Under the pieces are notes generated by a model. That model worked only from the letters and a program-made list of their open reading frames with translations, was not told the DNA's origin and made no database searches. Both the position numbers and the translations under genes were made by a program. From contig JAQMWT010000667.1 in the NCBI GenBank assembly GCA_029834535.1, positions 248,001 to 312,000 on the forward strand: a stretch of DNA of 64,000 nucleotides. Reading direction: 5' to 3'. This DNA comes from Chrysophaeum taylorii (lineage: Eukaryota; Sar; Pelagophyceae; Pelagomonadales; Pelagomonadaceae). Position 1 is the stretch's first letter; every line of letters begins with the position of its first letter. Shown piece after piece: positions 20,056 through 54,179 of this stretch.

Positions 20056-21108
20056 TTACGCTGCCCGAGGAGTAGTGTCCGTCGGCTTGAAAAGGTCCTT
20101 GGTGACCAAAAATCTCCGTTGGATGTTGTGGACCGCGTGACGTAGGCCGTAGCGGTGGGCGGTGTGCCAGGCGCCGGGGGGATCGGAGTCGAATCGGACG
20201 AAGAGGACGGCGGCGTGCGTGAAGGGGAGGTCGTCGTAGCGTCGTTTCGCGTCCTCGTAGGTCTGGAAGTGGTCGAGTTGCCAGGCACCAAAGTTGTCGG
20301 CGACGACGGCAGCCCGGGCGACGACGGAGGCAGAGTCGACGCGTCGGGGCCCCCAAAAGTTGGATATCGCGCGGCGCGCGATGTCGTCGAACTCGGCCGC
20401 ACCGTCACCGAGACTGTGGATCCACGCCGGAACGTGGTCGACGCCGAGGGCCCCGGCAAAGACGATGCAGAACGAATTACAATTTTTGCGGAGAACGTCG
20501 TAGGAGTCTCCCGACCAGTAGGGTGCGAGCCTCAGAAGCGTATCAAAGACGTCGAGCTCTGACTTGTGCGAGAGGCCGAGGCTGATCGTCTCGCGGTACT
20601 CGTGCGGCCGGCAGCGGCGAGGGGCGCACGAGAATATGCCGCACCCCTCGACGCTCGCGCCGTAGCTCCACTCGCGGTTCCAGATCTCGATGCCCGTGTG
20701 GTACGCGCCCCCCCGCTTCATCAACACGCTGTTGAGGACCTTGGCACCGCGGAAACTAACGTCGTAAACGTGCAGCTTGGCTTCGCTCGGAAGTTCGGTC
20801 TCGTCCTCGGCGTCGCGCTCGTCGAACCCCTCCCGCACTCCTCCGCACGCGGCGAACGCCTCCTCGATCGACATCGACATCGACTCCGACTTGGGGGGAT
20901 TTTCCTCCTGCTCCGAGCTCCCCCTTAGGCGCTCGATCCAATCGCTGAGACGCCACCTCGTTGGATCATCCCACGTCGTCTGACCGCTTGGGTCTTCGTA
21001 GTAGTGACTCTGCGATGACTCGTCGTACCACCGCAGCCAGCCCTCGGGCAGCTCCTTCCCGCGCGCCGACACTCTCGACGGCCGCTGCCGCCTCAAGGAG
21101 GAGGACAT
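20056..21108 (-). CDS. WW domain plus PPPDE (DeSI-type) cysteine peptidase
   Basis: I choose the ATG at 21108 (MSSSLRRQRPS); 350 residues, no intron. A WW domain occupies about residues 20-50 (LPEGWLRWYDESSQSHYYED..GQTTWDDP, with both Trp and the Pro). A PPPDE/DUF862 fold follows at about 112-236: LHVYDVSF, the catalytic His in GGAYHTGIEI (His 137) and the catalytic Cys in LRKNCNSFCIVFAGAL (Cys 210). GCGIFSCAPRRC and a WIHSLG end lie between and after them. Family members are deSUMOylating or deubiquitinating isopeptidases. The WW domain suggests recruitment to Pro-Tyr or phospho-Ser-Pro partners, which is inference. Residues after 236 are a C-terminal extension without known similarity. Confidence 0.93.
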   Translation of the reverse strand: MSSSLRRQRPSRVSARGKELPEGWLRWYDESSQSHYYEDPSGQTTWDDPTRWRLSDWIERLRGSSEQEENPPKSESMSMSIEEAFAACGGVREGFDERDAEDETELPSEAKLHVYDVSFRGAKVLNSVLMKRGGAYHTGIEIWNREWSYGASVEGCGIFSCAPRRCRPHEYRETISLGLSHKSELDVFDTLLRLAPYWSGDSYDVLRKNCNSFCIVFAGALGVDHVPAWIHSLGDGAAEFDDIARRAISNFWGPRRVDSASVVARAAVVADNFGAWQLDHFQTYEDAKRRYDDLPFTHAAVLFVRFDSDPPGAWHTAHRYGLRHAVHNIQRRFLVTKDLFKPTDTTPRAA

Positions 21109-21192
21109 CGGGCTTCCCGAAAAACGTATCAAGTCCGTGAGTGTGTCCAACGGATCTAGGGTACAAATAGGATTCGTGCGTGTTTACGGAAT

Positions 21193-22442: not shown

Positions 22443-25400
22443 TTATTCTACTTCGAGCCTCCTGGCTTCGAGGCGAAGGGCCTGCAGGCGGCGGTATGTG
22501 GCTCGAGCGTGCTTGAGGCGTAGGACGGGCGGAAAGTTAGCCTGAAAGTGGTGGGCATCGTCGAGGAGGTCCGCGTCCTGGTACTCGAGAAAGTCCTTGA
22601 GCGCAGCCTCGGGGCTGTATCGGCCGTCGACGTCGCTCAAGCATCCCACGAGGAGGTCGTGGAGGGCCTCGAGGAGCCGCGAGGGCGCCCGGGGGTCGAG
22701 GAGCTGGGGCGCGGCGCGATCGAGAACTTCTCGGAGCCCCGCAGACAGGTCGCAGGTAAAGCTGTCGAGAACGCGAGAGAGCGCGTCGGCCCCGGTGCCA
22801 GAGAGCAAGCCCTCGGCGAGCAGGACAACGCCGGCCACATCGCACAGGCTGGCGTCGCCGAGGCCGAGCTCGTCGACGTCCTCCGCGCCGAAGACGTCGA
22901 TCGCGAACTCGGCGAGAGAAGAATCGGCCGCGCGATCGAGCGTCGCGAGGACTCGGACGACGTTCTCCACGAGTCGGACCAGAGCGACAAGTCGGTCCCT
23001 GCGTCCAGCGCAGCGCTCGACGATCGCGTCCCGCAGCGTCGCCGAGAGGTGGCGGCGCTGCGGGACGGCGGCCTGGAGGCGCGCGAGGACCCCCCGCGAG
23101 TGCGCAGCGCCGAGAAAGTTGTACGACGGCAGGCAGATCTGGACCGGCTTTGCGGTGCGCAGCAGCCTTCGGCGAAGTTCGCTCTCGAGGCGCGGAAGAT
23201 CGAGGTCGGCATTTTCGAGCGCGCGCGAACGGTTGCATTCGAACAAGGCGTTTGTTAGAGGATCATCCTCCTCGGCGGCGTTTGTCACGAGAACGCGCTC
23301 CAGTATCCCGCGGGGTTCGCCGCCGCCAATCACGATCGACGTCGGCTCGCCGTCCCCCGCTACCGAGTTGTGAAGCCGCTCGAGGTGCCTGACGATGGCA
23401 ACGACGCACAGACACGGTGCGTCGATCGGTTCGCCGAAGGATGGGGGGGCTGGGAGCGAGAAAATGACGGGCGCATCCTTCGACATTGGGCGCCGCGCGG
23501 CGTAGTCCCCCCCGGCGTCGAGATCGACGCGTCGAACGTTGGTAGTTGGATCGCGCACGATAAACGGATTCGCGGAGCATTCGAACAGACGGTCGATTTG
23601 CGGCAACACGGCGTTAAACACGTCGCAATACCGCTCGAGAACGAGCTCGCCAGCCCTGCGCTCGTCCCCGTCTTTCAAGAACTGCAACGCTCGACCGTTC
23701 GAGAGATCGGATGCCTCCTCGCGGCTCAGCGGCTCGTTGTTACTCCTCCGAAGCAACAGCGCGCGCCGCAGAACGTCGAGCCAATCGATCACGGCGAGCA
23801 GGTTTGATCCCACCGTGCGCACCAGGCTGTCGTCTTCTAGGAGCATGAACGTAAGAGGATACTTTGCCTCGAAGCCACTCGTTAAGAGAGCGAGCGACCG
23901 AAGCGTCGTCTTATCCGGGCGACTGCGTCTGGGCCGCCACACTATCGACGGCGATCGCTGGTCTGGCGATACTATGTGGTCTTCGTATCGTCGCTCGCCG
24001 AGAGCGTCCAGAACAACCTGTGCGAGTTTCGCCTCGGAGGCTTGCGAGGCGCTCGCGAGCGCCGCTTTGATGGTCGCGCCCGCGTCGTTTTCGCCGAACG
24101 CCACGCATTGCGCCATGCGCTCGGCAACCTCATCTCGCGCGCTAATGCTCGGCACCCACTGAAATGCGTGAGAATGCCGACGATCGACCAACATCTCCGC
24201 GACGCGGTCCAGACTGGCGTGGCAGCGTACCGCCACTTGCTGCGCAACGTCCGTCGTCTGCGGGAAATAAGCGCATAACGCGGCGAAATCTTGAGCACTT
24301 CGCGTGAACGCGTCGATTTCGCGTCCTTTGCTTCTGCTGCTGCTGCTGCTGCTGATTTTCGTCGTCGCCCGATCGCTCAATACCGCCCGAGCGTCAGGGG
24401 ATACTGAGAGCGCCAAATGAAGCACCAGTCGAATAAAACGAACTCCGATGGGATGAAGCGCCGACGCTTTCCTTGTGGACACTAATGAGTAGTGACTGGC
24501 ATTTTCAGAGAAATAACCAGGCGCATCTGTGGAGGGCGCCGAGCCGCGCGTTTGAATCTTAGAAGGACGAGCCAACGTCTTAGCTGCGGCTGCATCGGAC
24601 ACCGGCTTATTGCCGCTTCGAGGCTCATGGGACTCCCCACCGATGGATTCCCCGCACGGACACCGACTGGCCTGCATAGGGCGGCCACACCTGCGTCGGG
24701 ACCTTTTAATAATAACTCTACGAGAGAACAAGTTCGCGCGTGCGAACGCGAATTATTATTTGTAGTAAAAGCAAGCAGCAGAGGGAAGAAAAAATAATCC
24801 CAGACTCTGGGCCGCCATACTCTCCCACAGTGTAGAGATGGCCCCTCGGACACGTATACCATTGGACGTATTGCGTTGCCATTACGTCGACGACCTGCGC
24901 AACGTCCACTGCCTCCATTGTCGGGAGATGCGAGCGCCGCTGGACAAATTCGCGAGGCGAAAATATCAAGTTGTAAAGCCAAGTGCTCCGAGAACGCAAA
25001 GAAATTGCCAGCACGTGCGTTGCTAGAGCGGGGAGATGTTTTGACGCGGCCAGTTCATCATCTTTTTCCTTTTTCGCGAGCCTCTTGCTCCGAGATGGCG
25101 TACTTTTGAGCGCTGATTCTCGCTTCTCTGGTGATGCAGGTTTCCAGGCGCTGGACACTGTTGCAATCCACTCAAGAGCCACACCAGAAATATCGCGATT
25201 GATGAACTGCTGTTGGAACCAAGCAGTCAAGTGTGTGTTCTTACAAAAGTTTGACTCGCGCAATTCTTGTCGGGTAACGGCCGACAAGACGACACTCGTT
25301 CGATCCGCTTCCGACTCGTGCGACAGTGTCTTGGCAGCGCTCGCAAGTATTTTCGAAGATGCTGCAGCACTCGATGCGTCGCACGCCCTTCTTACGAACT

Positions 25401-28400
25401 GGAGCAAAATGCCATACGTTGCGACATTGCTCGCGCACAGCGAAAACCCGTCGGCCTTATCGAGCGCTGATCGCGCCATCTCGCGTTCGTATTCGACGAG
25501 GGCTTCAACCAAACAATCGTGATCCACGCCTCTAAGCTTCATGGCAACGATGGCGAGGGCAACGGCGTACACACCACTGAACGCATAAGTAGTATGCAAC
25601 AGCTCGTTCTTGGCATCAGCACTCGGCAGCCGACTTACGGTGTTGTCGAGTCGCGACGCGAGATTTGTGAGTCGGACGTGGATATCCTCGTATATCTCTT
25701 CGTTTCTCGCAGTCTCGCAAATAAGATCGGACGCTCGCGCAATATCTCTTCGTATGGATACAACCTCAGCCAGCCTCGCAGCCAGCGCTGAGACTTCGGC
25801 ACCTTTCTCAGACAGTCGAACCATATAGGTGCCCTGGTCTTCCAAAAACTCAAGAACCCAACGAAAAAGAGGCGTGTGCTGTCGTTCAGGCGGTAACGCG
25901 CGAGGCGCACACCACGCCCACGCTACTTCGCCTATCTTGCCATCGGTACGAAGGAGATGCCCAAAGACGGAACGCCGCGCACGGCGGAACGACGCGTCGT
26001 CTGGTAGACAAGACTTCTCATCTAACACAACAGCGCATACAAGCGCAACGTGCACTTTGCCTTTGGCAAGCAAGAGCCTACACATCTGTGCAAACAACCC
26101 ACCGCCTGCGTTGATCGTTGGCGCGACACATGCCGCGACAACGCGCTCCATGATTTCGCCGCCGTCAAGTTCGCAGCAAATCAGAAAGCGAAGCGTTGTG
26201 AGAGCACCTTGAACCCACGATGGCATAAGTTCAGGTTCGCTTGCGACGACTTCATCAACAACCACTATGTCAACATCCAGCGAACGCCCGAGCGCTTCTT
26301 CGTCTTGTTGTCGCGATGTTTGCAGGACATTTTGCTGAACATTCACTAACACGCGACCCCAAGTTTGAAACTCTCCCCTCGAGCATGTCGTGCTACGCGC
26401 GAGACGACCCGTCTCCTCGAGGCACCATTCAACAACACTTTTGGTGGCCGAATGAGCTATAACGTCAATCAATTCCTGCTCTTCTAGCGGCTGGCCAGAT
26501 ACGGCCTCGATGATTGCCTCTAGTGAATTTTCTGCCGCACCTGGACACACACTCCATAAGAAGCGAACTTCTTTCAACGTTGGCTCTGCAGTCCACGCGG
26601 CGACAATGAGATTCACGACTGTCATATCCAGTTGCCTTGAGCGACAAAGGCTCGTACATGCGACTTCGTTCAAGCGTACTATCAAGTGACTCTGATCATG
26701 CGCAACGCCAAAAAGTTGCCTGAACACCACGTAATCTCTAAGCAGACGCAAATTAGCTTCATCGACTGCTCGCAACAGGCACCATTGTACTGGTTCGGTG
26801 AAGATGCTTCGCACGAGACCCTCACACATTGCTGCATTGGGAGTTCGCTGGCCGTGTGCCGATGTCATGTCGGGAGTGCTCAACGCATTCCGGGCTTGAT
26901 CGAAATTTGCCAGAATGCGCGTCGAGAAGGGATAATGACACAAATACGCACCGCGTTGCGGCGCGCAGCAAAGTTCGTCGCCACGAAGCGCGCGCTCGGC
27001 CATCAGAGTTAAGTTTTCCTGATCATACACCGCTCGATCATCCACAAAATAGCGCCAAAGCGTGCATAAGTCGAGCGATTCTGCGGTTTCTTCTCCTTTG
27101 GATTCGGCGTGCGGCCTATGAGAGCCCAGCAGAAGTGATAGATTGCCGAAAGAATCCAGAGAAGTAAGGACAGCTGCGAAGGCCCGACTCGTGAGCGTCT
27201 CTAGCGCGAGTGCCACTGAATGACGAGTAGATCCTGCCTGGAGCCTGAGCGCGAGGTCGATATGGAGCCCCACCGGCGCAGCGCGTACTATTCTAGAAAT
27301 CCCCCGACGAATCAACTCGGTCAGTCGTGTGTCGCGTAAGAGAGTCCTCGCGCCCGCCAATCTCGAACCAAAATCGTCCATATCATTGGCGCCTTGAGGA
27401 GATAGACCAAACGTAAGAGCTACTGCAGATGTGAGCGAGTGCTCGAGCTGCCGATCGAAAGCCTGCATATCGACAACCAATGCGTCGTGAAGATCTTGGC
27501 TAATCCACGTCGACGACAATGATGGGTCAGACAGCGGGCGCACGTCATCGATAAATAAAGAGCGCCAAGGCAACGACCGGAAGGTAAGGGTCCATTTGTG
27601 TCCTGCTTGATGCAACAGTAAGGCAGGAAGATGTGCAAGCACACAAATCTGCTTCAAGCCGTCATGTTTGTACGAGGTCAAAGCTTCGTCGACAACGTAG
27701 CAAATCTGCTGAACCATTCCTGGACCTACGACATCTGCAGCAAGCTGGAGAACGAGGACACCGTCGCTGCCATCAAGCAAAAACTCGGCTAGCACGCGCC
27801 GAAAAGCTTGCTCATTCATGACAAGACGACTAACTGGCACAATTCTGATGCATTCGCTACTTGTTGTCAAATGTCGAGCAGGCGATAGCGTCATCACAAG
27901 CAGCAAGGGCGCATCGGAATGCAATGATAAGAGAGCATCCAAGCTGGATCTGTCAGAAAAGTAGTCACCTGCTGTATAGGCTTCGAGCAAAAGCGTAGAG
28001 CACGACATGGCTACCGGAGTCGAGATTTCGGCCAGAAAGCTCTTTGCGCGTGATTCCAGGGTTTCGTCAATATTCCCTGCATCGTACGAGGCAAGGGCCA
28101 GGACGAGCGATGCGATGGACACATCGCTGATCGCCGCAAAACAATATTCACCTGTGTGCAGTCAACTCAAGTCGAATATACAACATTTTGTATGCCAGCC
28201 ACTCTGGAGTGAGGGCGTGAACCATGGACACTGGTGTGCACGGTCTAGCCGCGCCTGCGTCGCAACGTCATTGCTCCACGTGATGACTCGGTCTACCGCG
28301 AGCTTGAACCGAGTCTCAGAAGCTGCGATCACCGCCGGATGCAGGACAATCTTCTCGAACCGATTCAAAAGTGGCAAATCTAGCGATTTCAAAGCGCGCT

Positions 28401-31400
28401 CCTCTTCGGTGACGACCACCAGACGAAAAGTCTTGGCGACGGTGCACAGCTGGGACTTTGCCCCAAGGGCAAGTCGACTCATGCGAACCGTCTCCCCGCC
28501 TGGGAGGGTTCTCGTCACATACCGCTGGTTCATAAGATCGTAGAGTGCCTCATAAATGGTGTCGCATTCTACGAGGATCAATGTCTGACCCCTTGCCATG
28601 GCGTTTTTCACACGGTTCACACTTTCTGTGGTCTCAAACTCAGACGTATCACTTCCGACAACGTTTTGAACGTGCATCGATCCGAACAAAACTTCTGTCT
28701 GTTCCGCCCGTGCGTCCACCAAGCCAGAAGAACGCAAAATCGACAAGGCTGTGGAATCACGTGAAAGTAGCATTACGTGTCTGGCGCCGTTAATATCGTT
28801 TAAAGACGCTCGAACAAGCTCGAGCGCGCTCGGTGGAGTCGACGGCATACATCCCATGTGGGTGGTGGACTTGGCATCTCCGGATCCGTAAACATGAGCA
28901 AAAAATAAAGCGCGGATTTCCTCGAATACAGCCGAGTTCCCACCAAAGCTCCTGCCAACGGCGTGATCCAGAACACGGGGATCAAGTTGCGAAGTGCCTC
29001 GAGCTGCGCGCGCGAGGAGGTGAACAAGGCCATAAAAGTCACGCATCCCATAAAAGTAACGCCCACCAAGCTGGAGATGGTAGAGTTGGTGATAAGCTGC
29101 CGCTACGCGCGGCAGCCACTGAGCCTTCATCGTCGAGCTGCTCGTGCGTCGCAGCAGTGGCGGCGGAGGTGGGGGCTGTGGCTGCTCGGGAGATGGCGCT
29201 TTGCCGGTCGTGAAGCCAACGTCTGTTGCTGACCCTGAGATCGAGACGATGGCATTTCCCGTGGCCGCAATGTCTGACTCTGTCGGGTCCGGGCGCCTCA
29301 ACACTACAGCACGATTCATCTTGGCAGCGTCGAGGCTCCAGTTCGAGATGCCAACAATCGCCACTGGCGGCTTGGTCAAAATACCATGAAGGCACTTCAG
29401 CGGTTTATGTGGCGAAAACTCCGCAAGACCCACTTCGTCAAGCAAGAGAACCTGCGGGAATGATGAGCAATTCGTCGAGCTGTTGTGTCTATCTGCGCTG
29501 GACGTGCACTGTGCGCGTCTTTGGCGAACGTGCTTGATAGCTGCACGCAGATTTGTATTGCTGCCTACGAAACAAGGTGTTGCTCACAGTTGTGGCAGTC
29601 AGTACGGGGCTCGTGCAAACACATACACGAGAGCATAAAGAGAGCGAGCGTTTGAGGGAATGGGTTAACTTGGATGAGGGGTAAGTCGCAAGACACCGTG
29701 ACTCGTACATGATACCGTCAGATGAGCTCAGCGGGCTGCACTGATACGAGAATATTGTGACGCTAGGTAGCCCGCGCCAAAACGGGCGAGCGCTGTTTTT
29801 CCCGTTTAAGTTCGAGGAGATGATTGACAACGTAAGCGATTTCGATGTGCCAGGTCGACCAACGATGAACACTGGTACTCTAGTGAGCAAACAGACGGTT
29901 ACTGCGTACAAATTCTCTGCGAGTGCAAAATTCAAACCGATACCATCTCCAAGGTCGAATCGCCTGCATAATCGGCGCTTGGCAGTGTCGATCAGAGTCT
30001 CAATCACCCCGTCCCGCGCGAGCCTACCAAAGCCGACTTCGGAGCCCACTAGGCTTGATGTGCTATCGCGGCCTCGTGCGATCCGAATAGCCCCTCGTAT
30101 CGTTGCGAGCAGGGAAAAGCGCGCGCTTTCTGTTGGCAAACGAAAAAAGTACACCTATTGATCGATGAATCTGATGAGACGGCCTACACCTTATTGTTGA
30201 CCCTGGATTGCATACATGCACCACTCCAAGCATCGCCGTGTCGTAGAGGTCAAAGGCAGCGTCGAACGTTTTCCGCTGCTTTGTCGGAGGCTTTGTTTTG
30301 GCAAAACACACGGCGGCGAACCTATAATTGGTGGAGCTGATGAGATAGCCCACGACGACGTCCTCACTGGACTCTGGTCAGCTACCAAACCCCCAGGTCC
30401 AGAGCACGCCGGACATCTCGGAGCGAAACGGCGCTCTCATCTCCTTCGACCTCCCGCACGAGGCTTTGCGCAGCAGTGATGCACGCAGCGAGGCTTCGCT
30501 TCTCAAGCCGGGAGATGGATGAAGAACTGTGTCTATCTTCGACCATTGCGCGGATGTACGATTCCTCTTGATGCAATGCCAACGAACCGAACGAGAAAAC
30601 CTTGCGTCGAGATTTTGAACGCGGGGAAGCCACATGCACAGACACATAAGTCTCCCTTCAAGGAGATATGCAGCCGGCTACAATCAAGGCGCTCTGAAAA
30701 CAGGCAGATCGGACAACGCGCGAACAAACAGAAAACCAAGAACTCCGTAAGGATACGAAGTCCAGTAATGACGGAGCTAGTGGGTTCACGCGATACACAA
30801 GATCAACTAAATCGCGCCGCGCATCTGAACGATACGCAAAGCCGGGCATCGTCTCAGCTTCATCAGCGAGCGGGGCTCGACGTCGCCTTACAGGGTTGAT
30901 CGCGGCAATTACATGCACTCGAGGCGAGATTGGCTTCCCGTTGTTGATGCGGCGATTCGTCATCAGTTCGGCAATCAATCCCATGTGGTCGCAGCTGTTG
31001 GCTTCGTCCAAAAAGACGACAGCACTTACCAGCCCCTCTTCCCCGCCGCGCTCTTCATTACCCAAAGAAGAATAGGTCGTGTTCTGCGTCGTATCTAGGA
31101 AGGAGTGCGCCTCGGCGACGACTTGCAGAATATCCTCGGATTGCGTGCCACCGTTGCAGTCGAGTACAGACAGGCGAAATCCGACCCATTTACACAGGAC
31201 GTTGAGCAAGAATGTTTTCCCGACGCCAGCTTCGCCGACTAGAATGACGGGTAACCGAGCGCGAAGCCTGGTATAGATGTTGTGAATTTTCAACAAATTA
31301 TCCGGGGTTAGGACATATCGTCGTAGCAATCGTCTTGCGTTAACTTGGTCTCGGTGGACCCCTGTCACAAGCGCCATAGCCGCGTGAGCGTCAATCTCAG

Positions 31401-34400
31401 TGCTCAGATCGAAGGGGGCGCCCACTTCGACGCTGTTCGCCTCGAGCGCTCGACGAAGAAAAGGATGAAGAGATAGCATCGTGCGTCGCGGCTCTAAGCC
31501 CAACACTGAGATTGCCGGTCTCGTTCCGTCGTCGCTTAAGCCGTTGTTCTCTTCTCGTGCCGGGCACTCTTCGTTAATGCATACGCACTGGTAGTTGCTG
31601 CGCTCCCATCGTTCGACTCGTTCGAGCCGAGACATTGCATCGTCGGGCGTCGATGATTCCGCCACGTCGCTTGAATCGTAGCGCTCGATTCTGACATTGG
31701 GTTCGGGGCGAGACGCTTCCGGAACCAACCACTCTCCATCGAGACGTGTAGTCGCAGACTGATAAAAAACACTCTCGCTTTCGTCCGAGCACGACGCTAA
31801 GACCCATCGCATACGTTCGAGGCTGTAAAAGCAATGCAAGCGATCATGCTTGTCAAAGGCGAGCGACACGTATCGTGGACGGCCGGCGATCGTCGCGTGA
31901 GGTGCATTTGGCTCAACTTGAGTCATGCACAGCACACCATCCGTGCTCGTGGCTTTGGAGGGGACGCCTCGAAATTCGAGACGACGAGTCCCGACCCATA
32001 CTTGGATGAAACTCGCCGGAGACCACTCGAAAGAACTCGTCCACTGTGCAGAGCTGGTAGGATCCTCGCTCAATCGAGCCTGGTGGGAGCTACGCGAGAT
32101 ACCCGCGTCGGCATTTTTGTCAGCATCGGGCAATGACAGTCTCTTATCGATTATCCAGCGAACTTTTTCGCATTTAACTTGCGCGAAAAGGTAATAGTCG
32201 CCCATCTGAAAAGCGCAGAGACCGTCAACGCAAAACGGCTGTCGCTTCCACACGCCGTTTAGCGCGGCACAGGAGTGCCCCGTCAAGCGAACATCGAACG
32301 CAGACCACCGCGTCGGCCGTACAGGCGGAGTGACACCTCCGCCGATTGCAGTTGCCACCGTGGTTGCAACGTATTCCACCAGCGCCGTTCGGAGCGTCTT
32401 GGTGGCTTCTGGACTGTCGAACGACGTTCCCTCGTGATCCTCGACGACGAAAAGTGCCGCGGCTGGTGCCGACGTCATCGCGAGCACAATGAAGCTGCGC
32501 CAGAGCTGGTCGACGAATCCCCAGAGTTTGCGGTATGATGTCACGCATTGATTCCCCCGAGAAGCCCACTCCAGCAGGTCGAACACAGTTCGACTGTCGT
32601 CAAAGTCAATCTCGTCAATCCCCCGGCCAAAAGGATGGTTCCGAGCAGCCGCGAGGACTGTGCAAACAAAGCGAAGTCGCGAAAAAGGCTCGTCGGCAAC
32701 CTTGGGGAATCGACGTCTCTCAGCATCCGTGAGGCATACGTGCGACGCGTAAGAGTCACCAAAGCCTCGCTCGAGATCTTTCCTCGTCACGACCAAGCCG
32801 TCGACAGGATGAGCAGAGTCCCACTGGGGCAAAACCTTCAAAAAACTATCTCTGTCGCAGTGAGTCTCAATAGCAATTCGATATCCATTTCTCCACGACC
32901 ACGCGAACTGGCCGTCTTCTAGCTCGCGCAAAAACAATAGGGAGAAGAGAATAGAATCAGAGAGCTCGGAAAGGTTCGCAGCCAAGTCTAAATGCAAAAC
33001 ACAGTCCGTGCTTGCGTGTGGCACTCGGCGAAGTGCGTCGATAACGTCCGCAACCGAGAGCGGATCTTGAAACCACCCGAGTTTTTTTCGTTCGAGGTTC
33101 TTCTCCGCACTCATGCTGCAGATTGCAAATGACTTTCCCGCGCCAGCGTCGCGCGATGCGTACACGCGCACGTTGTCTTCGTCGTCCACTATTAATCGGG
33201 AAAACTTCGAAAGGCTCGCGATCGTTAGCACGGGAATATTTGCGCTTCGGACGCAAGGTAGCGATCGAAGCGGCGACAACGACATAGTCGTGCGAGAAAT
33301 GATAACTAGCGGCGGGCGATTCGTGGTAGCAGCACCGGGGGCGAGCTCGTCGAGCAACGACGCAAGAAGCCGCCAATCTACAGGGCTTAGAGACTCTGAA
33401 GCTGGCAACACGAGCGCGTACATCTCGAACTTCACGCAGCAGTCCAGAGCCCAGCGTAACAATAAGTGCTCGAGCGCTGAGCGGTAATGGCGCTGGAGAC
33501 GCGGGTCGAGGACTAAAACGTTGTGCTTGGTCAAACGAGGAGTCGCCGAGTGACGAGCCAACCTAAACGCACGGCGTTAGTCTTATTGCCTCGCACGTTG
33601 TGATTTCAGCACATTTCAGAGAAATAATATTCAAACTCTGAACCAAACGCAGAAAGCAGCGTGAGATAGATGTCGTTGTCGTGGCTTGTCAGCCAATAAG
33701 CAGCACCCGAGTCGAACGGCGATGTAACCGTGGTCTGCGCCTGTTGATGGACATCACCAAGCGCAGCGTCGAGCTCATTGCCGAGTAACGCGAGCCGCGA
33801 GAATTCGAGATCAGGTTGCCACGCCGCAGTCAGCCGGCGTGCGACGCCATCCAGCGCTCCAAGTGCGAAAACCGTGCCTGGCAGGACCTCTGCGAGGCAG
33901 CCTACCACGTCTGACCTGTCTTCCACGCTGCGCGAGATACTATTGAGCTGCGCCGTTGTAAGGAAGTTCAGGCTCGGGTGCAATCTGCGCGCCGATCGCA
34001 GCGCGGTGCGCCACTTGGAAAGCCGCGTCCGCGTCGCATCGACCAGCCAAGCAAGCTTGTCTTCACCTCCGTCCTCAGTGGTGACAGGGACGACCAGGGT
34101 CTGCGCATCGGCGCAGCCTTCAGTCGCCAAATCTACTCGAAGCGCCGCGAGTTCTTGCACCCAGCGCATCTGCTTGACGAAACTTTCTACTGCCGCTTTG
34201 ACGGCGGGGGCGCGAGTGGCGCCTGCCAAGGCAACGCTCGTCGCGAAATCGCGCAGCTCGACCAGATTCGCCGATTTGTGCACGATTGTCTTCTTTCGCG
34301 GCATTTCCCATTCCAGTCGAACGACGGCATCCGAAAGGTCGTCCCCGCACCCCACCTTCCACCGCGCCCGCCAGTCTTCGCGAAAGAGGCCTAACAAACG

Positions 34401-37400
34401 ATTTGGCGCTGTGCTGTCCTCGGATTCGTCCGACATGAGCTCTACCAATGGGAGTGCAACCTCCAAACATTCTTCAAAAGCCATGCAAAAATTAGACGGG
34501 GCCCCGCCAAGATCGCCGTAGAATTGTTGGAGCACCTCTTCAAAACTGGCGCGAGGAACCACGCCGCCGTCTCCGAGAACGGGACGGATGTACTGCCGCA
34601 CAGATGAAAGGGAAGACAGGATTGCCTCGTCGACGCGACCGGACTCGAGCCAAAGCTCGGGCGGGCACTCGAGTTCGCTCTTTCCCAACGCGATTTCGAC
34701 CGCGGACGCGAAGTCGGAGTCCTCGCGAGGCAGCGACGAAATAAACGCACAAAAGTCTGGATTTCGCGCGATGAGATGAACGACGCGAGGGTTCAGATCC
34801 AGAAGTCGATCGTCGACCTTCTGAGCTGCCAGAGCGATGGGCGTTGTCCCTTTGGCGTCAATGTCTGCCAGAGTGAGTCCACTCCATCCGTCAGACAGTT
34901 GGTTTGCGAGCTCTTCGAGAGCCGCTCGGCTCGCGCTCTCCTTAGAGCTGTGTTCCTCGCGAGACGAGCGAACGAGAAGCGCGAGATCATCGATGAGTCT
35001 TAAGAGATCCGATAGGTGCTGGCGAACGCGATCGAGACGTCGAAAATTTGCAAGTTTCTTGCGTATTTTTGTCCGCCAAATCACGCCAGTCGCCCCCAAT
35101 TCAAGCACTTTGAACGGTTCGCGCGTTCGAAACAAAAGCTCTAGTTGCGAATCTGCGAAGTCAAAGGCGGCAAGGTCGTCGTCTACCTTGATGGTTCCCT
35201 TGTCCAAGTCAGCGAATAGGCTCGCCCACGACTCTGACGTCTTTTCGATGGCAGTGTCGACTTCGGCGTTCGTCATCGACGTTGGCCAGACTCGACGGAA
35301 GATCGAAGATTCGCAAAGGGTATCAAGCCACTCGATCGCCTCGAGCAAACCGGATGGCAAGCCCTGACCTCGGTCCACAACATCGAGCGCTTGATTGACA
35401 GTCATATCGCCCGCATTCCATCTCGACGAAACATCGCCCACGTGACACGCAGCGTCCGATTTTTCGGCCAAGCACCCTAAGACTCGACGAAAGCGGCCTA
35501 ACTCCGCCGACACGAAATTCGTGTCTTGGACGCGTCGAGCGAGATATGTCGCGTCCACGACGCTATTGAGTTGCTTCGCATTGAGGGCGTGACAAGCGTC
35601 GACGAGCAAGCGCGTGCAAGATCCGGTCGCAAGATCGCTGGAGGCTGCGGCGAATGCCTTTATCGCGCGTTCAGCGATCGGTCCGACGGTGCGTTCCCAC
35701 GCGTCACTCTTCTTCTTCGCGTGATCTTCACGACTGGCCCACTGGACCAACGCGATCCAGACGCGGGGATTACTCACCGAGAGAAAATCAAGAGCATTCT
35801 CGGGAGGCTTTCGCGAAGGAGCGATCGACGGAGCTTCCAACGTCGACGCCGCGAGCTCGTAAACAAGCTCGTGACGGGTAGTAGGTGGACATTGAGATAC
35901 GAGCGTATGAAATGCCCTTCCAGGCGCGAGCGATGCCACCGCATGCCTGGCAGCATCGGCGATGGCAGCGTCGACGACGACGACGTCGCCGCAATCCCCG
36001 TCCGGCGCAGCACAAGTGGTGAGCCAGTGCAAAAAACGTTGCGGGTCTTCGTCGCAAAGCTCGTCGAGCGCGGCTCGCAGGATGAAGCCGAGCGCATCGA
36101 GACGCCGGCTACTTTCGGGGCGTTCAGCTGCTGCTGCTGCTGCCATGGGAACGAAATAAGAGCAAAGAGCATCGAGCGACTGGTGTCCAGCTCGCTTGAC
36201 AACAACAGCAACAATGTCGCGCGCACCACTGACTCGCAGCGCCAGGGCACCGCACGCGTCCCGAAGCGGACCGGCCGCGTAGCGCGGTGATACCCAGACG
36301 CCGACGTCATCCTTTGTGCGACGATCTAGCATGGTGGCGATCAAGTCGACGACGTCGAGAACGTCAACCTCGAGTGCGGGGTTTCGGAGTAGCGCCGCTA
36401 TCGCAGAGTCATCGACGCAGCCACCGGGCAGAAAACCGGCGAGTCGTGCCAACGCGCGGACGTCTTCGGCCAGTACTGGGCAGTAGCTTACGGCACACCG
36501 ATCCCGTAGTGCGGCGGCGACGCTTTCACAGTTTTTTGTAATCACAGCACCAGCGATGGTGCACACGAAAGACAGATCCTTCAGACGCGGGCTGCATCGG
36601 ATCATGGCGGCGAGATAGGACGCGTCGTCGAGGCGCTTTGATTCTTCTTCGAGAAGGCTTAGTAGCTCTCGTTTCCACGCGTCGCCGAGGACCTCGATAA
36701 CTGCGTTGTGGAGGGCAGTCCGAGCCTCCTCCACCAAGCTGGCGGCCTGAGTCGCAGCAAAGTCCGATTCGCGGGCACTCTCGAGGAGATCTTCGATCGC
36801 GCGGTCGAAGGGGCCGCCGAAAGCATCGTATCGACGGGCCGCCCGGAGCCTCGCGGAGGGCGGCGCTAGTCGTACGATCCGCGATTCTGATTTTGTCTTG
36901 TTGCCGGCTTGCTGGCCGTATATCCGAGACACTCCGTCGAGAAAGGCGATGCACCCGTCACTCAGGGATGTCGCGCCACTCGGCGCGACCACCGCCGCTT
37001 CGCTCCACGGGCCGTCGATCTGCTTTTGCCGCATCGGATGAACGACGGTGGTGACCATCCCGTCTTCCCTAACTTGCGCGGGCGACGGCGCTGCAGTCCA
37101 CTCGGGGAGCTCGGGCGCCGGCGGAGGATCGAGACGCAACGCTCTGGCGACCGCGACGGCGGCGGCGCGAGCATCGAGCGCGTTCTCGACGCGGTCGTCG
37201 AAATCGCCGGCATCTTCTTCGTTTATCGCGCAAATTCGATCGTTGCCAGTGTCAAAAACTAGCAGCGTGTGGGCTCTTCGGTGTCGCGTTCCCTCGTCTA
37301 GCCACGCGAGCCCCGCAGGTGCGTCGAAGCGAGCGACTTGGTGCCGTTTCGTGTTTCCGCGCGGCGGCGCGCAGTGGCCGTCGCTGTTCCCTCGGCGCTT

Positions 37401-37886
37401 GGGGTCCCCGGCGAGAGTCGTCACGACGCCGTCCGGAATGGTCGCGTGCCGCACGCTGTGGCCATCTACGAAGACAACGCCCTCGACGCGATTCTTTGGC
37501 ACGCCTGCTGTCCTCTCTTTCAGGCGTCGTCGCGTACCAAAGCCGCGGCTGGCTACGAGGGCGCCGGGGGAGACGAGCGTGGCTTTTTCGACGTGTTCGA
37601 CCACCTCTTTGCCACCTCTGGAGCCATCGTTCCAAACGCGCAACACGGTGTCGACAGGCTCGGGCGCGGAGAGGACACTCGAAGAAGAAGCGCCCCCGGC
37701 GAGGGTAGTTACCGACGCCGCCGCGGTCGAGAATTCGTTCGACGCCAGCGCCACGACGCGAAGCGCGGCGTTTCCCGTGTCGCTGACTACGAGACGATCG
37801 GGCGGGACAAGCGTCACCGACGACGGTTGCGCGAAGAGTGGTTGGGTCGCGGCGTCGTCTTGGTTCATCATCTTCTTCTTCTTCTT

Positions 37887-37919
<33 letters not shown>

Positions 37920-39692
37920 CGTCGAATCGGTCGAGCCGCGCTCGCCGAGGACGCCGGCGAGCGTCGTGATCCTTCGCGAGTCGGCAGAGAGGAGCCGAAG
38001 CGCGTGACTATGCGTGTCGCAGATCACGATTTCCCCCGAGGGAAGCGCGCAAAGTCCACGGGGGGATCGCAGGATTGCGAGCCGCGGCCTTGGAGCGCGG
38101 ATTCTGCGACGAACGGCGTCGAGAGGCGAGACGCGGCCGTTCCTTTCGAACGGGCGATCGCAGTCCAAGAATAAGAGTTGTCGCTTGTCGTCGCACTGCA
38201 CCGTAAGACCTCGACGGACTCCCGGAAGATCCCGTAGTTCGCGTTCGACAACGGTCGCCGGCTGCCACTTGCTCGAGCCTTGCGGCAAAATCTCGACGCG
38301 ATCGCCCGGATCGCACGCGAGCGGCGACGCGTCGAGCGCTTCGACCTCTCTCGCGCGGCCCTCGATCGTAAAGCCGTCGACGGCTTGGCGCGCGACGCGT
38401 CGAGATCGACCGTCAACCAGCACGCCAACGACCTCGCCGGTCGCAGCGTCGAGCTGGTAGAGCGAGTTTTCATCGCTTGCCACGAGCCACCGGCGCTGTT
38501 GGCGCGCGACTTGGACCACCGCGCAAAAGTTCAACGCTCGATCCTCCTTTTCTCCCGCGATACGGCCCCTCGCCAGCGTCGACAACGTCGCTCCTCCTCC
38601 TCCTCCGGCATCGAGCATCGCCGACAGGTCTGGCCCAAAGGTGCGCTGCAAATCGGCGGCCGCGCGGCGTAGGTCTTTGCCTCGGCGCCTGAGGCGACCC
38701 TCTCGAGCTCGGAGCGGCGCCGCGCGACTCGCCAACGCCTCGAGCTCGCGTAGCACAGCCAGGCACGCGTCCGGGACGCCATCGTCGTCCAGCCGGCGAT
38801 CCCCCGAGAGCAACAACTCTCTTGCGACGAGTCCGGCCGTCCGTCTCTCGGCGGTCGCTGCGGCCGCCGCCCGCTCGCACCGCCAGAGCGCCGCGTCGCA
38901 CGCCGCGAGCGCGCGACGCCATCTCTCTTCGCGTTTCGCGAGAGACGCGGAGCGAGCGAACGACGGAACTTTTGGGGGTTTGTCCTCGGGTGCGGCGGCG
39001 AACTCCTGCCTCGGTTCTCGAGAGAGCTGTATCAGGCGTGGGGGCGGGCCGAGTCTTGCGAGATCGTCGTCGCCGCAAAACGACGCGAGCCTCGCGAACG
39101 CGTATCCGTCGGGTCCGCGCGGCGCGGCCCAGAGAGCGGCAAGCGCCGCGCGCGCGGCCGTGGCCACGGCTCGCCGCGCGCTCGCGGACATCGCGATTCG
39201 GCGACCAGCCGGCGGGGCCGCCGCCTCGATGAGGCGCCGCCATTCGCGCGCCGACGCCACGCTCGCGAACACGGCAGCGAACGCCCACGCGGCGAGCGGC
39301 GACGCGTCCGACTCGGCGAGCGCGAGGACGGCCTCGTCGGCGCGGCGCCCGCGAGCGAGCTGCGCGTGAGCTGCGAGCAACGTCGCGCTCGCTCGCTCGT
39401 CGGTCAGCCACGGCCCTCCGAACGCGTCGATAACGCCGCAGCATCGCTCGTAGTCGTCGCTGTCGGCGACCACCGTCGTCGTTTCCGCAACATCGACGAC
39501 CTTTGAGCACCCGTCGTCGTCGTTGAATACGACGCGCCGAACGCGGCCGCGCGCGTCGGGCAGGACCGCACATCGGGTGCCGCGGTCCACCTCCACCTGA
39601 TTGCCGCCGTCGTCGTCGTCGACGTATTCGACGGAGACCACGCGCGCGGCGTCGAGGCACACGATGAGCAGGTCATCCTGCGACCACCCCAT
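22443..39692 (-). CDS. RNF213-like: RNF213 (mysterin)-like giant AAA+ protein with NHL-like repeats and RZ finger
   Basis: One minus-strand gene of about 17 kb; the first in-frame ATG is at 39692 (MGWSQDDLL), with open frame further upstream to 39827. Open segments join through short introns that I could place: 33563-33612 (50 nt), 30601-30756, one near 30180-30240, two between 29430 and 29720, one near 28120-28180, and 24691-24820. In order: NHL-like repeats (ITTLAGVLG, VSDTGNAALRVV, VTTLAGD, LLVFDTGNDRICAI); a long helical region; a first nucleotide-loop-like site (SRDAGAGKSF). A full AAA core follows near 31240 (VGEAGVGKTFLL, then VVFLDEANSC), then LLDFVFSFGSL..., and a second AAA core near 29845 (VGRPGTSKSLTL, SYQCSPLSSSDG, VLLLDEVGLAEFSP, VGISNWSLDAAKMNR). 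Then come SLDLPLLNRFEK and the RZ finger at 24627-24862, followed by about 700 residues. These blocks are the RNF213 signature. No RING (CxxC...CxxC) is visible between the AAA part and the RZ finger. Known relatives are ATPase-coupled ubiquitin ligases acting on lipid droplets and intracellular pathogens; a role here is inference. Confidence 0.9.
24627..24862 (-). other. RZ-type zinc finger, split by a 130-nt intron
   Basis: Exonic parts join as WYTCPRGHLYTVGE plus CGRPMQASRCPCGESIGG, followed by ESHEP. The intron runs from donor GTATGG (24820) to acceptor ACGCAG (24691), and the split codon restores Glu-Cys. The ligand set CxxxH...C...CxC plus a late His matches the RZ finger of RNF213/ZNFX1, except that the last pair is CxC rather than the usual CxxC. 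In RNF213 this finger carries the ubiquitin-transfer cysteine/zinc site. Confidence 0.85.
37877..37921. repeat. (GAC)n/(CTT)n tract inside the giant gene
   Basis: ttcttcttcttcttt followed by about twelve GAC units. On the minus strand this codes for a Ser run and then a Lys run between NHL-like blocks, an expanded in-frame insertion. Confidence 0.85.
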
Positions 39693-39973
39693 CAGCAGGA
39701 CTTGTTCTTGCTGCTGCTGCTGCTTCGAGGGCGCGAATCGCGGTTCAACAACGCGGGTCGCCGGAGCCGATTGATGACACGCTCTCGGCACCTTCCGCCG
39801 GGCTTTTCGGACGGGGTTTAGGGACAAGAAAAAAAAATCCTGTCATGGTTGTTGTTGTTGTTGCTGTTGTTGTTGAATCTGCTGCGTCACTCCGAAGGTT
39901 TTCATTAATAATAATACGAAAACGCAGCGCGGTTATTTTTCGACGTCGAAGATCGACCGTTCCTAACAACAAT
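39693..39973. other. Region between the giant gene and a divergent membrane-protein gene
   Basis: About 280 bases upstream of both genes. It contains (GTT)n near 39846-39873, an A-run at 39830, AT-rich DNA near 39903-39916 and a (GCT/TGC)n tract near 39708-39723. It probably holds both promoters, unless the giant protein starts upstream of 39692. Confidence 0.4.
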
Positions 39974-52101: not shown

Positions 52102-52184
52102 CGCCGCTCGCTGCTGCTTGGCGAGGGTTTTTGTTTAGGGACCAACCGACAAGTTGTGTAGTGTGAAGGAATATCGTATTAACG

Positions 52185-54179
52185 ATGCGACGAAGAGCAG
52201 CCTTCCTCCGACGATGGAGGACGACGACGGGACCGCCCGAGCTGCCGCCGGGGTCGTACTTGCCGCAGCACGTGAGGTCCCAGATAAATCGCAAGACGGT
52301 CGAGGCCTACATCGTGCAGCGGCTCGGGCCCGCCTCGGCGCCACGGCCGCTGTGGCGGCGGGCGGGCGACGACTTGCTAGAAGTCAAGGAGTGTCCATCT
52401 GCGACCTTTTGCGCCATCGACGGCAAGTTCGACCGGCGCGCGGCTCCCGGGAACCAATGGAAGCTGACGATCTGGGACTCCGGGTCGTTCTTTTGCCACC
52501 GGTGCCGGGGCAAGGGCTCGTGGCTCGACCTCAAGCTCAAGTGGACGGGCGTCACGGTGGCCAAGAAAACGGCGGCGCGCGAGGCGCTCGTCGAGGAGGA
52601 GGGAATGGACCAATCCACTGCAACGAGGTACGTCGCGGCCTTGATGGAGCCCGAGGGCGAGGGCGCGCGGAAGATGCTCGAGGAGCGAGGGTTGCGCCTG
52701 GAGGTCGCCGCCGAGTACGGCGTCGGCTTCGCGAGAGCAGTGTTCCGCGACGACGACGACGTCACAACCTATCGCAAGCACGAGTGCGTGACGTTTCCTT
52801 GGGTCGATCCCAAAACCAACGCGACGACGCGCGTCAAGCTGCGGTCCCTGTCGGAAAAACGGTGCATGCGGCTCGAGCCCAAGGGGGGCGGCTGGGGGCT
52901 TTTTGGCCGCCACGTCGTCCCCCCCGACGCGACGGAAATCGTCTTGACCGAAGGTGAGTTCGATGCGCTCGCAGTCCGGCAGGCGACGGGAAGGCCCGCC
53001 TTGAGCCTTCCGAACGGGGCGGCGTCTCTGCCACCCCAAGTCCTGGCGCTGCTCGAACCCTTTTCCAAAGTCTACTTGTGGATGGACAACGACGCGGCGG
53101 GCGACGCCGGGGCGCGCAAATTCGCCGAGAAGCTCGGATTGCACCGGTGCAGGCTCGTGCGACCCCCGGCGTCGTGGGGAAACGATCCGCCGAAAGACGC
53201 GAACGACGCGCTCGAGCGCGGTCTTCGGTTGGACGACGCAATCGACGAGGCGGCGCCGCCCGCGCACGAGCACCTCGCGCGCTTCGCTGACCTCAGGGAG
53301 GACGTGCTCCACGAGCTCCGGAATCCCGATCTCTACAAGGGAGTCGAGCTCGCGAGCCTCCCGGGCTTGACCAAGCTGCTGCTCGGCGCTCGCACTGGCG
53401 AGTTCACCCTCCTCAGCGGCCCGACGGGTTCCGGCAAGACGACGCTCGCCGCGCAGCTCGCCGTCGATCTCGTCAAGCAAAACACGCCCGCTCTCTGGGG
53501 CTCGTTCGAGATCCGCAATACGCACCTCGCGATTAAAATGCTCAAACAGTTCGCGAGGCGCCAAGACCCCGAGCTCACCCAAATGCGCCCAGACCATCTC
53601 TACAGATTATGCGACGACTTCGAGCGACTCCCGCTCTACTTCATGAGGTTCCACGGAGCGACGCTCGTCGACGACATCATCGACGCCATGACCTACGCCA
53701 AGTACGTGTACGACGTCGAACACGTCATCCTCGACACGCTCCAATTCATGCTCGCCCACGATCCCTCGCGGGCCGCGGTCGGCTCGCGCTTCGACACGCA
53801 GGACCACGTCGTCGCTAAGTTCAGGCATTTTGCAACCAGTCAAAACGTCCACGTCCTCCTCGTCGTCCACCCCCGCAAGGAGGACCCCGCCGCCCCCCTC
53901 ACAATCATGTCCATTTATGGCGGCGCCAAGGCCATCCAGGAGGCCGACAATGTCCTGCTCCTCCAGGCTCCGTCGCCCAAGCCCGCCGCCGACAAGCCTG
54001 CTACATCATCCTCCTTGCCGACGGCGGCCTCGGCAAACAATAAGCCCATCAAGGCTCTAGACCTCGTCAAAAACCGATTTGGGGGCAAGACGGGTTCCAT
54101 CAAGCTCGCCTTCGAGGACAAACGCCAGCGCTTCTTCGAGCTCGCCACCCGGCCCCCGACGTCAGCGTCCTCTTCCTAA
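52185..54179 (+). CDS. Twinkle-type organellar primase-helicase
   Basis: 664 residues, intronless. The first about 20 residues are Arg-rich without acids (MRRRAAFLRRWRTTTG), an organelle transit-like start. The primase zinc site has Cys70, Cys76, Cys104 and Cys107 (FFCHRCRGKGSW). The Toprim domain is at about 251-320 (IVLTEGEFDALAV; VYLWMDNDAAGDAGA). The RecA-like helicase begins near 385: SLPGLTKLLLGARTGEFTLLSGPTGSGKTTL (Walker A 412-419), WGSFEIRN, VILDTLQFM (Walker B), VLLVVHPRKE and AIQEADNVLLLQ. Both primase and helicase elements look intact, as in plant and protist Twinkle rather than animal Twinkle, where the zinc site is lost. Known role: replicative helicase and primer synthesis for mitochondrial and/or plastid DNA. 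It is divergent from FAM136A, with 83 bases between starts. Confidence 0.95.
   Translation: MRRRAAFLRRWRTTTGPPELPPGSYLPQHVRSQINRKTVEAYIVQRLGPASAPRPLWRRAGDDLLEVKECPSATFCAIDGKFDRRAAPGNQWKLTIWDSGSFFCHRCRGKGSWLDLKLKWTGVTVAKKTAAREALVEEEGMDQSTATRYVAALMEPEGEGARKMLEERGLRLEVAAEYGVGFARAVFRDDDDVTTYRKHECVTFPWVDPKTNATTRVKLRSLSEKRCMRLEPKGGGWGLFGRHVVPPDATEIVLTEGEFDALAVRQATGRPALSLPNGAASLPPQVLALLEPFSKVYLWMDNDAAGDAGARKFAEKLGLHRCRLVRPPASWGNDPPKDANDALERGLRLDDAIDEAAPPAHEHLARFADLREDVLHELRNPDLYKGVELASLPGLTKLLLGARTGEFTLLSGPTGSGKTTLAAQLAVDLVKQNTPALWGSFEIRNTHLAIKMLKQFARRQDPELTQMRPDHLYRLCDDFERLPLYFMRFHGATLVDDIIDAMTYAKYVYDVEHVILDTLQFMLAHDPSRAAVGSRFDTQDHVVAKFRHFATSQNVHVLLVVHPRKEDPAAPLTIMSIYGGAKAIQEADNVLLLQAPSPKPAADKPATSSSLPTAASANNKPIKALDLVKNRFGGKTGSIKLAFEDKRQRFFELATRPPTSASSS

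Follow-up and report, generated by a model that had tools for sequence, protein, structure and literature searches.

This work concerns a 64,000-nucleotide stretch of the Chrysophaeum taylorii genome (assembly GCA_029834535.1, contig JAQMWT010000667.1, positions 248,001 to 312,000; hereafter the window), in which the minus strand carries a giant RNF213-type gene that has no RING. The gene combines AAA units of RNF213 type with an RZ finger in which the catalytic residues are kept, and with an NHL region at its N-terminus. We consider it probable that its product is an RNF213-family AAA+ ubiquitin ligase that lost the RING or never needed it, in which ATP would gate transthiolation through the RZ finger and the NHL region would recognize the targets. 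The sample is the 70.8-Mb eukaryotic assembly (697 contigs) that contains the window, and ‘alga’ is a fair label for its source, since PF00504, the light-harvesting family, is matched 84 times in it. All splicing described below is predicted from genomic DNA.

Architecture of the gene

Six long minus-strand open reading frames (ORFs) stand in a row: A (33606-39842), B (30658-33576), C (29489-30154), D (28162-29583), E (24718-28161) and F (22443-24752). As judged from its AAA4 and linker sequences, their product is an RNF213-family AAA+ protein. All nine PDB matches of the AAA4 region (ORF D) at E <= 1 are to RNF213, the best of them at E 5.2e-36, and AAA3 (ORF B) has its best matches in Midasin and RNF213. 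Walker A and Walker B are complete both in AAA3 (GEAGVGKT/FLDEAN) and in AAA4 (GRPGTSKS/LDEVGL); RNF213 has six AAA units, of which only those at the AAA2 position, AAA3 and AAA4 are recognizable here by sequence. A profile of the RNF213 linker, constructed from five relatives and leaving this gene out, placed ORF A at the top of the 607 ORFs of the window (E 1.3e-4, the next being 0.46), and with this gene included it gave weak matches to RNF213 chains in the PDB (E 0.012-0.033). The first-pass annotation, made from the letters of this DNA, had described RNF213-type AAA cores and an RZ finger on a single strand, in these frames and between these ends, and it described them correctly.

The RZ finger itself is matched by PF20173 in each of its two half-exons separately (ORFs E and F). 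Removal of the predicted intron at 24691-24820 joins ...GGAGA to GTGTGGC, giving WYTCPRGHLYTVGECGRPMQASRCPCGESIGGESHEP, which reads VGECGRPM, and the spliced finger matches Pfam at E 6.7e-22 (77.3 bits) and has RNF213 as its best PDB match (E 3.5e-14). When aligned by phmmer to human RNF213, the ligands C, H, C and C, the nucleophile Cys and the general-base His all match (residue roles as given in the available text of PMC11549300), and the flanking motifs NLIFSP and LPTM align too. On this alignment the domain is an RZ finger with its four ligands, nucleophile and general base, save for the C-P-C spacing of the second knuckle. The intron within the finger had been missed earlier, and the finger is legible only once spliced. 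A dead finger with a Cys-to-Tyr change was also considered and rejected: the unspliced GEYGGP, from which the catalytic cysteine seems lost, arises because the frame is read into the intron, whereas the predicted splice gives GECG.

From AAA4 to the RZ finger, the coding frame (ORFs D, E and F) contains no CxxC pair, the same count returning 8 pairs in its positive control on contig C198. Across the genome the zf-RING_2 family has 68 matches (116 candidates scored), none of them in this gene or in the spans of its three paralogs, and a regular expression for the full RING spacing, run without a positive control, found no match on the minus strand. The earlier remark that no RING is visible is thus borne out by the cysteine-pair count, the genome-wide search and Pfam, and at the level of sequence an RNF213-type gene without a RING is confirmed. 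A RING concealed in an unrecognized exon, or present in a degenerate form, is extremely improbable. Some of the exon junctions are only approximate, and the other two minus-strand frames hold 8 CxxC pairs over 24820-30700, but these are isolated or broken by stops, none has the spacing of a RING, and frames D and E are open through the entire E3 part. Single-sequence structure prediction of the E3 piece 25882-26724 would be compatible with a hidden RING, at a predicted local distance difference test (pLDDT) value of 43.0 that makes it uninformative and leaves it outside the evidence; Foldseek with this low-confidence model returned no match at E <= 0.001. In RNF213 the RING sits between the final helices of the E3-back. 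The mouse protein carries it there as an insertion, and auto-ubiquitination stays wild-type-like when residues 3941-3999 are replaced (PMC7311170, available text). Since removal of the mouse RING spares auto-ubiquitination, the algal protein may be regarded as the natural counterpart of that published deletion. The function of the RNF213 RING was still called elusive in 2025 (PMC12440826).

At the other end of the protein, ORF A has its first Met at 39692, begins MGWSQDDL, and matches the NHL family PF01436 at E 1.2e-8 (35 bits, cut-off 20). The RNF213 linker motif lies in ORF A as well, so that a single open frame of 2,078 codons spans both it and the NHL region. Two adjacent genes, one for the NHL part and one for the AAA-RZ part, are thus very unlikely: the linker motif lies near the 3′ end of the NHL frame, and the P-loop of the AAA2 position stands early in the next ORF, which begins after a gap of 29 nt. 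What speaks for two genes is the loose placement of the intron between A and B, for which 15 donor/acceptor pairs, GC donors counted, keep the frame. Further along, parts of ORFs B to D are linked in order by tblastn with the paralog on contig C391, and the C-terminal ORF ends at 22443. Pfam finds NHL matches in this gene only among the four RNF213-like genes of the genome, and the proposal that the NHL part is a lineage-specific addition is in keeping with this distribution. Its single-sequence structure prediction (pLDDT 33.5) is too low for use as evidence.

The features of the gene, all on the minus strand, are the following.

22443..39692, minus: RNF213-type gene as a whole, roughly 5,500 codons spread over 7 or more exons, the A-B and B-C junctions only approximately placed
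33606..39692, minus: exon A, with start Met, NHL region, helical arm and linker motif, in a single open frame (the codons counted from 39842)
36915..38492, minus: NHL-type region, six repeat-like units by eye, two stretches by Pfam
33945..34022, minus: RNF213 linker motif, LSKWRTALRSARRLHPSLNFLTTAQL, from the profile search
33130..33162, minus: P-loop at the AAA2 position, YASRDAGAGKS, from alignment with the paralogs
31213..31245, minus: AAA3 Walker A, ILVGEAGVGKT
30991..31020, minus: AAA3 Walker B, VVFLDEANSC
30385..30640, minus: short exon(s) in the AAA3-AAA4 interval, frame approximate, from tblastn with the C391 paralog and reading frames
29837..29863, minus: AAA4 Walker A, VGRPGTSKS
29410..29445, minus: AAA4 Walker B, LLDEVGLAEFSP
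28351..28386, minus: AAA4 conserved motif, SLDLPLLNRFEK
28152..28202, minus: predicted GT-AG intron, 51 nt
24821..28151, minus: E3-module exon without RING, with the first half of the RZ finger at its end
24820..24861, minus: first half of the RZ finger, WYTCPRGHLYTVGE, its last codon divided by the intron
24691..24820, minus: predicted GT-AG intron inside the RZ finger, 130 nt, phase 2
24627..24689, minus: second half of the RZ finger, carrying the nucleophile Cys and the general-base His, CGRPMQASRCPCGESIGGESH
22443..24690, minus: C-terminal exon, with the second half of the RZ finger and the C-terminal region

A further feature of ORF B, lying between the P-loop of the AAA2 position and AAA3, is a W- and Y-rich stretch (about 31750-32450, minus strand) with repeat-like GVW/FYSLERMRWVLAS wording, which belongs to no Pfam family.

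Relatives and the origin of the RING

Searches with three parts of the family agree on three further RNF213-like loci in the same genome, at C391:322707-337213, C238:15389-30076 and C200:107825-122824. The first resembles the gene described here in having AAA3, AAA4, an RZ finger with GECG and no RING, and differs from it in that there is no NHL match, the first RZ knuckle is C-x-C, a Tyr stands at the His position and the RZ finger is free of introns. The other two, 72% identical to each other over the ORF from AAA4 to the end, are RNF213-like in their AAA4, the profile of which matches RNF213 at E 4.7e-24, and likewise have no RING; they differ in having a vWA domain ahead of AAA3 and, in place of the RZ finger, a finger (CPxC...GC..M.CG...H) resembling RING2 of the RBR (RING1-IBR-RING2) ligases. 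The loci with such fingers are listed here.

C238:15389-22498 (L041): RNF213-like AAA protein with RBR RING2-like finger
C200:107825-115138 (L040): RNF213-like AAA protein with RBR RING2-like finger
C198:63280-63510 (L036): IBR-like protein, with the finger that in this genome comes closest to the RING2-like finger on C238

The C238/C200 finger is 46% identical to that of the IBR-like protein on C198, a protein with its own IBR match (23.4 bits) below the cut-off of 24.3. Among the 13 rows that an alignment of the C238/C200-type finger gave against the PDB, nine are parkin or Ariadne/ARIH1, three are eL30 ribosomal proteins and one is SD01679p; the best relatives are RING2 of parkin and of Ariadne, in which the GC cysteine lines up, though the best E of 0.023 is marginal. 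As support for a RING2-like identity, more weight goes to the C198 finger, which the genome search matched at 43% identity and E 8e-16. No full RBR set was found at C238 or C200, where IBR_2 remains below its cut-off (E 0.027 and 0.031) and the RING2-like finger stands by itself. The C-terminal part of these two proteins has no detectable homology to C391, to this gene or to RNF213 in the PDB, and homology of their E3 part to RNF213 was undetected by sequence. When the RZ and RING2-like fingers are said to share a position, this therefore refers only to their spacing after LNRFEK, which is about 1,150 residues here, 1,261 in C391, 1,137 in C238, 1,166 in C200 and 1,334 in human RNF213. Own-genome rows at E 0.001-1 (C60, C344 and C555) were taken as chance, as none recurred in a repeat search.

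Outside this genome, three scans of viral contigs gave no relatives, and a scan of genome contigs gave three (L046-L048, the pond loci), all in one metagenome-assembled genome labelled Verrucomicrobiaceae. Since the frames of L046 and L048 break within the AAA3 Walker A as if by introns, the three loci are probably eukaryotic contamination of that assembly. Neither RZ nor IBR is matched by Pfam in any of them. The three also have in common a KDCGY motif near the expected position of the finger.

An AAA4 tree of eight rows separates this gene, C391 and human RNF213 from C238, C200 and the three pond loci with 100/100 support, in an unrooted tree with long-branch warnings, few eukaryotes, some hand-joined rows and a partial L047. 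The first-pass annotation had suggested a RING-less form, either ancestral or reduced. Its RING-less character stands, and of the two options the three paralogs without a RING and the grouping of this gene with human RNF213 favor the ancestral one, with a RING gained on the animal side, although a thinly sampled and unrooted tree is no proof. RING absence looks older than RING presence, the comparison covering one alga, one pond organism and human RNF213, an eukaryote sampling too thin for proof, and this suggests that the RING which gave human RNF213 its name may be a later addition. Loss of the RING in this algal lineage, rather than its gain in animals, is the rather unlikely alternative. 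The narrow comparison and the long branches of the tree leave room for it, but no RING is found in either RNF213 subgroup of the genome, so that the loss would have to predate the split of the subgroups or to have recurred. A wider interpretation, which we put forward tentatively and as less than an even bet, is that RNF213 could be a single branch of an ancient eukaryotic family whose AAA+ ring drives catalytic zinc fingers that are exchanged from branch to branch (RZ in one branch, an RBR RING2-type/Rcat finger without RING1 or IBR in another, no recognizable finger in a third), the RING being an animal-side insertion and the NHL, vWA and CBM20 modules being swapped as sensors.

A possible mechanism

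In mouse RNF213, ATP binding at AAA3 and AAA4 activates the ligase, with Cys4462 of the RZ finger as the active-site cysteine; auto-ubiquitination is abolished when the RZ domain is lost or Cys4462 is mutated, yet the Ser mutant is active (PMC12075652, available text). Given that all testable sequence elements of the mouse scheme occur here, ATP-gated transthiolation seems a plausible mode of action for the algal protein too. ATP at AAA3 and AAA4 would bring the E3 module to a state that accepts ubiquitin, a cysteine-reactive E2 would pass ubiquitin onto the RZ-finger cysteine (the equivalent of Cys4516 in human and Cys4462 in mouse), and this cysteine would hand it to the target, aided by the conserved His, which is His4537 in human. 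Target recognition would fall to the NHL region, which stands in place of the animal N-terminus. By analogy with mammalian RNF213, an immune protein in human, the algal protein might serve in defense against intracellular invaders.

Several observations weigh against a working ligase of this kind. The C-P-C knuckle, in place of C-x-x-C, could weaken zinc binding, and beyond the neighborhood of the RZ finger the E3 module gives no phmmer alignment to RNF213. Without its RING, mammalian RNF213 is partly impaired in ubiquitylation of the T. gondii vacuole (PMC11549300), and some function of the RING has been argued from its conservation (PMC12440826). The first of these would also suit a pseudo-ligase, i.e., an AAA machine with a non-working RZ finger, as would the pond loci, which by their want of an RZ or IBR match indicate that finger loss can occur elsewhere in the family. 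However, the nucleophile, the general base, the first knuckle and the flanks are conserved with human RNF213, which is not expected of a decaying domain, and the unusual spacing may be tolerated, given the C-x-C in the first knuckle of the C391 paralog. A pseudo-ligase is therefore unlikely in our opinion, and an active, RING-less ligase is the interpretation we retain.

Known systems and significance

The gene is like RNF213/mysterin of human and mouse in its linker motif, in the Walker motifs of AAA3 and AAA4, in the SYQCSP/LDEVGLAE/LLNRFEK wording of AAA4, and in an RZ finger with nucleophile Cys, general-base His and NLxFSP and LPTM flanks. It is unlike human RNF213 in having no RING, an N-terminal NHL region, a C-P-C knuckle and a shorter interval from AAA4 to RZ. 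In addition, human RNF213 has a CBM20 domain (PMC11549300), whereas the algal N-terminal ORF (33606-39842) gives no Pfam match to a carbohydrate-binding family at E <= 1. Several AAA units of Midasin/Rea1 are matched by the AAA3 region, but Midasin has no RZ or E3 part, and the AAA4 region matches RNF213 only. ZNFX1 combines an RZ finger with a helicase domain, and no helicase family is matched by Pfam in the six ORFs at E <= 1. The literature covered, which includes few subscription journals and preprints, holds no RNF213 relatives in algae and no naturally RING-less RNF213, and unreviewed database sequences may exist; in listings of bivalve literature, RNF213 is mentioned alongside gene family expansion.

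Two other genes of the window deserve mention.

20056-21183, minus: PPPDE putative peptidase (Peptidase_C97, E 3.9e-26), directly downstream of the giant gene
52167-54179, plus: Toprim and DnaB/AAA_25 protein, possibly a Twinkle-like organelle primase-helicase

A natural RNF213-type protein that lacks a RING but retains the catalytic residues of the RZ finger allows a test of what the RING contributes. Should the RING prove to be an animal acquisition, one would look for its function in regulation specific to animals and not in catalysis. As for the paralogs, in which a RING2-like finger follows AAA4 at a similar distance, their confirmation would mean that more than one kind of cysteine-bearing zinc finger can be driven by the AAA core.

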